From Candidatus Bandiella woodruffii (lineage in GTDB: Bacteria > Pseudomonadota > Alphaproteobacteria > Rickettsiales > Midichloriaceae), in assembly GCF_034359465.1 (NCBI RefSeq), contig NZ_CP110820.1:496001-560000 (forward strand): DNA of 64,000 bases, written 5' to 3'. A program made the position numbers and the translations under genes. The notes below the pieces were generated by a model that saw only the letters and a list, made by a program, of their open reading frames with translations, was not told the origin of the DNA and searched no databases. How positions within the stretch are numbered: the first letter of the stretch is position 1; each line of letters begins with the position of its first letter. Of this stretch, positions 31,265 through 33,839 are shown piece after piece.

Positions 31265-32740
31265 AGAGTACTCTTATATATTAATTAGCCATTCTTTCTT
31301 GCCAAAAAGACGTTCACTTTCTATATCGTTTTTGCGGCACATCGAAATAAGATTATCTGATTCTATTATCTGCGGAGAATCAGGCGAATAATTAAGACCC
31401 ATTACGTGATTTAACCATGGTTCTTGGCCCATTGCGTAAACATAGACTTGTTTGCATTTTAACTTTTGTATAATAGACCATGCTTTGCTGCAATTAGACC
31501 CACATAAAGTTCTGCTACGGTCAAATTCTCTGCTTAGTTGGTTTGTGAGTAATGCTCCATACACCCATGTTAATGGTGCACCCTCACACTCCATGCCTAT
31601 AAAAAGCATTTCTATAGGACCAGTAATATTAAAAATATGATCGTATAAATTCTCAGCTAGGTTGTTGGAATCAGCGGCAAACAATAATCTTTTGCCACGT
31701 ATATTCACGCAATAAGATAGCTTTGTTCGAATATTCAAATCACAGTGTTCGCCCAAAAAAGGTATGGTTAAAATTTCTCCATCTGTAAACTTTATAGTCT
31801 CTAATTCATCCATTTCTAATAAAGAACCAAAGCCGACATGCTTTAAAATTAGTTTTAGTGAGGGATCTGCTAACGTTCCCTTTTGATTGCTTGGAAAAAC
31901 TATATTTCGAACCTTATGCCTTAATTGTAATAAAGTTTCAAACATTACGTGATCTAAATGACTATGCGTAATGACCACGTAGTCTATAGAGTCTGGCAGA
32001 TCATCGAAGCTATATCTGGGGATGTTGTTTTCCACAGCATAACTAATAACGGGATCAAAAAGAATTGAGGTAGAAGCTGTCTCAACTAAAACGCAGGCAT
32101 GACCGAAATATCTAATTCTAACCCCATCTCCCTGATAATTCCTATCATCATTTTGTTTGGGAATATCTGTTGTGAAAAACGATTCAAACAGAGGAGCCTG
32201 ATGATCTGTAATATCTAATAACTTGATCAAATCTTGCAGTTCACATGGGTATTGTCGATGCTTAAAAAATACGTCCCATCTTTGATCAGAGAAGGGAATT
32301 TGTAAATAGATTTCATCATCCTGGCGGACTCTTGGTGTGCTAAAGACAAATTTTCGAAAATCTCCATCAATCTTGCTAAGAGCTATCTCTTGATGATTAT
32401 CGGTGTAATAAAACCTGTATATCAAAGATTCCATAAGACGTATAGAAGGATGATTATTTAAATCATACACAAGCTCCACAAATCCCTTAAGCATATCAGG
32501 GACGCGCTCATAAAAGGATTCCAAAGAACTGCCCTTAGCCTCGTTTAATAACATCTTGTCTAGCTCTTTTATAGAATCACCTAAAGCGATTAATGTTTTG
32601 CAGTTTTCTTTAGTTTCTTCTATAAGCGCCTTTATTTCATTAGTTTTCTCCCTTTCTAAGTCGATAAATGGTCCCCTATCATTTTAGGATCTTTTACGGC
32701 ATATGCATGAATTTTTGGATTTTGTACATATGACTTCATT

Positions 32741-33544
32741 ATTTTTAGCAGAGTGTTAGCCAAAGATAGATATAAAATTGCCCTGCTCACTTAGGAAATT
32801 ATTGTTATCCTCAAAATGTACCCAGAGCTTAATCGTAAGATCGACAACTTCTTCAGATTTTGAAACTACCTTTGTTTTTCTGGTCATTCTTGCAATTCTG
32901 TGCCTTGTGTTTGAGTTATTGGACTCAATTGAGAGTGTATGTTGTTTGCCAACAACATGTTGATGGCGAGGTATAACCTCTGAATAAACAGACCAATCGT
33001 CTGTGTAATAACTGCAATTATCTCTACTTATGATTTTCCACAATTTTCTAAAGGTTGTAACGTTACGCTTACCAACCACCCAGGCAACAACTCTCTTGAG
33101 CTCCCTACTATAGGCTTTCCATATCCATAATTTGTTTTTTTTTGAATCTACAAAATGCCACATCTCATCTATTTCAACTTCTCTCAATTCTTCCGGCACT
33201 ATTGGTCTTGGTATCTTTTTAGCATACAGTATTATCCACTTATATACGCTAGTATGAGCTACTTTAAATAATTTCCCTAGCCATCTAAAGCTACTTTTTC
33301 CCATGCTGTACAATAACACTGCCAGAGCCTTCATCTCTGGCGAACAGCCTCTTAATTTAGTGCTTGTAAAATTACATCCACACTCTTTGCATTTATACCT
33401 TTGCATACCCCTAATATTACCATTCTTAACGTATTTACTGCTACTGCATTTTTTACACTCTGTATTCATATTTCTATTTTCTTTGTTGCTCGCTATATTC
33501 ATTTTAGCATCTTATCTATCTTATGGCAACACTCCCCTTTTTAG
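32741..33544 (-). mobile_element. IS-A copy A5
   Basis: Element 32749-33536. Flanks ATTTTTAG and CTTTTTAG agree in seven of eight bases. It interrupts the hydroxylase gene after its 40 or so first codons; the disrupted protein reads through correctly once the element is removed. Confidence 0.93.
32756..33502 (-). CDS. IS1-family transposase of A5, single fused frame
   Basis: The only copy in which the slip run is nine A, so both halves form one 248-residue protein without frameshifting. Zinc-ribbon Cys, HTH, DEMW (D112), TDDW (D168/D169) and SIESNN (E193) are all in one chain. It could supply active transposase to the other copies. Confidence 0.9.
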   Translation of the reverse strand: MNIASNKENRNMNTECKKCSSSKYVKNGNIRGMQRYKCKECGCNFTSTKLRGCSPEMKALAVLLYSMGKSSFRWLGKLFKVAHTSVYKWIILYAKKIPRPIVPEELREVEIDEMWHFVDSKKNKLWIWKAYSRELKRVVAWVVGKRNVTTFRKLWKIISRDNCSYYTDDWSVYSEVIPRHQHVVGKQHTLSIESNNSNTRHRIARMTRKTKVVSKSEEVVDLTIKLWVHFEDNNNFLSEQGNFISIFG

Positions 33545-33839
33545 ATGCCTTTCGATAATATTGCATCCAGCATTTACTGGAGGCAATAGTTGTGGCCATG
33601 CATACCATCTCCAAATAAGTGGTTCGGCTTTTATGGTAGATTTCAAATAATGCATAATCAGCTTATAATTTTTGATTTTATAATAAAATATTATAGTTAT
33701 GACATAAATCATATTAGTCAAGCAAAAATAATCAAAAGCTACTACGTAACACTGAATGGCGAAATCATAAAAGAGAAAATTGGGTTAGTCATAGTCATAT
33801 ATATACCTCTCGTAAACTAAGAGTTAGCAAATTTATAGG

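Follow-up and report, generated by a model that had tools for sequence, protein, structure and literature searches.

Remnants of a CmlA-type diiron β-hydroxylase gene and its peptide pathway among IS1-family elements in a Rickettsiales symbiont

The diiron enzymes CmlA and FrsH act on amino acids that are attached to NRPS carrier domains and hydroxylate them; FrsH is the leucine β-hydroxylase of FR900359 (PMC7794379). NRPS clusters have also been reported from the Rickettsiales 'Ca. Megaira' and 'Ca. Tisiphia', with a proposed defensive role (PMC9098888, PMC10132079); the main texts of these two reports make no mention of a hydroxylase. The locus presented here, from a 64,000-nucleotide stretch (the window) of the Candidatus Bandiella woodruffii genome, likewise lies in an intracellular member of the Rickettsiales, but those clusters are described as present systems, whereas this one is in ruins. 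It shares with CmlA of the chloramphenicol pathway (PDB 4jo0, 5kik) the architecture of a CmlA_N domain joined to a diiron metallo-β-lactamase domain, and the HxHxDH, GEH and ADS ligand motifs align. Unlike CmlA, however, the gene is broken, has no NRPS partner and belongs to an intracellular alphaproteobacterium; in contrast to FrsH, its neighbours are an Asp/Glu racemase gene and an asparagine-synthetase-like gene. We conclude with high confidence that this is a recently inactivated CmlA/FrsH-type diiron β-hydroxylase gene, belonging to an NRPS cluster that is falling apart in a Rickettsiales symbiont under the proliferation of IS elements. It clearly exemplifies a process already known and is no new system.

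Table 1. Hydroxylase pseudogene, inserted elements and associated pathway genes (coordinates count from the first base of the window)
Feature	Coordinates	Strand	Basis
CmlA-type hydroxylase, N-terminal piece, residues 1-41	33539-33655	-	PF18456 profile 1-37; 84% identity to G038 orthologue residues 4-41
IS1-family element (copy A5) interrupting the hydroxylase gene; transposase ORF 32756-33502; flanked on both sides by the target duplication CTAAAAA	32749-33536	-	PF03400; comparison of copies and flanks
Hydroxylase, second piece, residues 40-64, up to the frameshift	32674-32748	-	PF18456 profile 34-61; 84% identity to G038 residues 40-64
G run with a one-base deletion relative to intact relatives (frameshift)	32673-32676	-	Translations; base 32674 common to second and main pieces
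Hydroxylase, main piece: remaining CmlA_N and diiron metallo-β-lactamase domain, to the natural stop	31274-32674	-	Profile matches; PDB and orthologue alignments; 38-member alignment
Asp/Glu racemase gene, split: residues 1-210 at 30481-31113, 209-284 at 29471-29692	29471-31119	-	PF01177; two-piece match to intact L040 racemase
IS1-family copy within the racemase gene, 8-bp duplication ATAAAAGC	29691-30477	-	Comparison of copies and flanks
Asparagine-synthetase-like gene; last ~20 residues severed by an IS1 copy, tail at 27083-27130	27083-29446	-	PF00733/PF13537; L040 and L038 matches
IS1-family copy in the 3' end of the asparagine-synthetase-like gene, duplication TTTTATAA	27136-27922	+	Comparison of copies and flanks
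Sfp-type 4'-phosphopantetheinyl transferase without its first ~30 residues, adjoining an IS ending near 26441	26446-27045	+	PF01648; homologue matches; context
Adenylation-domain fragment, core motif YTSGTTGNPKGV, between two IS copies	20284-20535	-	PF00501; IS borders

The hydroxylase gene survives in three pieces (Table 1), each of which matches the CmlA_N profile (PF18456) on its own: the frame 33524-33655 over profile positions 1-37 (E 7.9e-10), the frame 32661-32757 over positions 34-61 (E 2.9e-7) and the frame 31274-32554 over positions 102-230 (E 2e-39), the last running on into the metallo-β-lactamase domain. The domain order of the CmlA-type diiron β-hydroxylases is present, albeit in three pieces. 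The solved sequence closest to the main piece is PDB 8a90 (E 1e-119, aligned over 6-421 of 426 residues), a 'Non-heme diiron monooxygenase' which we take to be FrsH, and the CmlA structure 4jo0 also matches (E 4e-86); these matches bear out the family identity proposed in a preliminary description of this DNA. The motifs that it had pointed to (RWYAW, ERHLK, THSHLDH and MECEGAPL) are all found. The three diiron-site motifs THSHLDH, FLGEH and FAADS are kept in the main piece; the residues that we take to form the diiron site of CmlA are H305, H307, D309, H310, E377 and D403, a numbering that agrees with the alignment. By analogy with the family, the intact enzyme would have hydroxylated the β-carbon of an amino acid tethered to an NRPS carrier domain through a thioester bond.

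When intact relatives serve as queries, the minus-strand segments 33652-33539, 32748-32674 and 32674-31283 prove collinear and span residues 4-528 of an intact 530-aa orthologue in another Rickettsiales genome (G038) with no gap, corresponding to its residues 4-41, 40-64 and 65-528, respectively. The overlap of the first two pieces at residues 40-41 is due to the target duplication of the inserted element, while the sharing of base 32674 by the second and main pieces implies that a single base is missing from the G run; apart from this base, the gene has lost nothing. Hence, the earlier claims of an inserted IS copy with one duplication, of a G missing at 32673-32676 and of a continuous frame once both lesions are repaired all stand, the last from the gap-free coverage, as the pieces were kept apart in our comparison. 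The N-terminal fragment does align with the CmlA family, as had been anticipated, although its boundaries, given as 33545-33655, needed a small correction to 33539-33655. As the reading frame is interrupted by both an IS insertion and a frameshift, the gene is a pseudogene of the CmlA-type family and not a working member.

The interrupting element, copy A5, belongs to the IS1 family, which is marked by an IS1 transposase domain and target duplications of 8-9 bp; here, the transposase domain is that of PF03400, and 8-bp duplications flank most copies. At A5, the left-hand repeat is CTAAAAAG and the right-hand one CTAAAAAT, with 7 of the 8 bases matching and one differing; at several other copies of the element, the two 8-bp repeats are identical. 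Most full-length copies in the window and its flanks are 99.0-99.6% identical to A5 (two others show 98.4 and 98.6%), which fits a recent spread of the element. The transposase gene contains a run of A (33130-33150 in A5 and equivalent sites elsewhere) that is 7, 8 or 9 long depending on the copy; within the window, only A5, with nine A, has the unbroken 248-aa transposase frame, and the other IS1 copies are split.

As to the age of the loss, an alignment of 38 family members was examined for private changes as a sign of relaxed selection, and none of the 81 near-invariant columns is altered in the main piece. If about three quarters of random changes at near-invariant codons alter the residue, this absence of change sets, by our estimate, an upper bound of roughly 1.6% per site (95%) on the neutral change accumulated after inactivation, similar in size to the divergence of 0.4-1.6% among the IS copies. 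The intact columns, together with the retained diiron-ligand motifs, support a recent loss of the hydroxylase, as first suggested.

The frameshift could be a sequencing error, leaving the IS insertion as the sole break: the site lies in a short G run, and the A7/A8/A9 run of the IS copies also varies. We consider this unlikely because the 147 runs of at least six A/T or at least four G/C in 15 neighbouring housekeeping genes (23,163 bases) are all in frame, although this control is partial and just lowers the odds of an error, since those genes were picked as open. The verdict of a pseudogene holds even without the frameshift, as the IS alone breaks the gene. The 426-aa frame from an internal ATG (31274-32554) also persists and could still be translated, and one might take it for a still-working shortened enzyme with another substrate, given its intact metal ligands and unchanged near-invariant columns. 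However, it is missing ~105 residues at its N-terminus, and with them much of the CmlA_N domain found in intact relatives, and the genome retains no NRPS carrier, making such an enzyme very improbable. That the insertion is a reversible switch, with precise excision along its near-perfect duplication restoring the hydroxylase, is scarcely credible, given that one base of the duplication has already diverged, that the gene carries a second lesion and that the NRPS has been deleted.

The same decay extends beyond the hydroxylase: the pathway carries at least five lesions, that of the hydroxylase included, a point that goes beyond the preliminary description. The racemase gene and then the asparagine-synthetase-like gene lie next to it on the same strand, and each is broken by an IS1 copy. 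The asparagine-synthetase-like protein is 63% identical over 513 aa to that of an intact cluster (L040), and its severed tail is matched by a second such cluster (L038). The phosphopantetheinyl transferase has lost its start beside an IS—its alignments to intact homologues start no earlier than their residue 32—and a separate AcpS-type match occurs in the genome. The partner NRPS, present in the same cluster in intact relatives, is gone from the genome: the adenylation fragment (~85 aa), which is partial and the only NRPS adenylation domain, is the sole NRPS remnant found, no condensation domain occurs in the 1.2-Mb genome, and its one carrier protein is located elsewhere. With no condensation domain, one carrier protein and no NRPS left, the hydroxylase is without a substrate, which points to the decay of a whole pathway rather than of a single gene. 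We propose that recombination between IS copies deleted the NRPS and that selection on the hydroxylase would have lapsed when the pathway was gone. The locus shows a specialised peptide pathway disappearing from an intracellular bacterium while most of its lesions can still be read. An aspartate/asparagine-type building block is suggested, though not proved, by the neighbouring racemase and asparagine-synthetase-like genes.

The IS1 copies at 41161-41946 and L014:2958-3744 (window coordinate ~66958), which lie in opposite orientations, have swapped flanks: one has GAGAAGAA/AATATCTT, the other AATATCTT/GAGAAGAA. Such a pattern is the mark of an inversion of ~25 kb through recombination between the two copies. 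The dprA frame 46172-46843 (223 aa) begins directly after an IS copy ending near 46164, and the model matches it only from position 15; its start may be truncated.

CmlA_N occurs in eight of the 344 Rickettsiales genomes, that of the window included, and condensation domains in 21. Intact orthologues, which the preliminary description suggested seeking in sister strains, exist in other Rickettsiales families and other alphaproteobacterial symbionts, and none was found in the 22 other genomes of the same family, which yielded no CmlA_N; weak metallo-β-lactamase matches in family members (E 1e-6 to 8e-4) were rejected as orthologues, none having CmlA_N. Two of the eight carriers show no condensation domain, namely the window's genome and G195 (80% complete); in G195, CmlA is followed by an adenylation protein that gives a weak condensation match and is cut short by the end of the contig. 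The tree places the main piece in a clade of 11 rows (SH-aLRT 99) that unites Rickettsiales with other alphaproteobacterial symbionts, G038 being nearest. The asparagine-synthetase-like gene has no counterpart elsewhere in the order at E<=1e-60; it is 56-63% identical in three intact clusters (L037, L038 of Caedibacter sp. 38-128, and L040), where it adjoins the racemase near CmlA and NRPS genes. In G187, G246 and G185, too, racemase homologues are found in the vicinity of CmlA. The differing nearest relatives of the hydroxylase and of the racemase/asparagine-synthetase-like pair hint at a mosaic history or unsampled donors. The viral contigs searched gave no match.

CmlA-type hydroxylases, known mainly from antibiotic producers, occur in NRPS clusters of several unrelated intracellular symbionts. 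We tentatively entertain, at slightly less than even chances, a history in which a family of NRPS clusters that combine a CmlA-type hydroxylase with an Asp/Glu racemase, and in some cases also an asparagine-synthetase-like gene, has spread among intracellular symbionts that are not related (Rickettsiales and Caedibacter/Finniella-type bacteria), the lineage of the window's genome being caught as it loses its cluster IS by IS. Loss of such CmlA copies recurs in the order, since second copies are broken in G038 (by a stop) and in G186 (in two separated pieces). The NRPS genes beside CmlA at L038:10272-13670 and L085:5730-8876 start with a formyltransferase domain and are probably formylating start modules. 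Between the NRPS and CmlA genes of G038, a gene (L009:15302-16417) with weak likeness to chloramphenicol phosphotransferase-like kinases (PF07931) is a possible self-protection gene.
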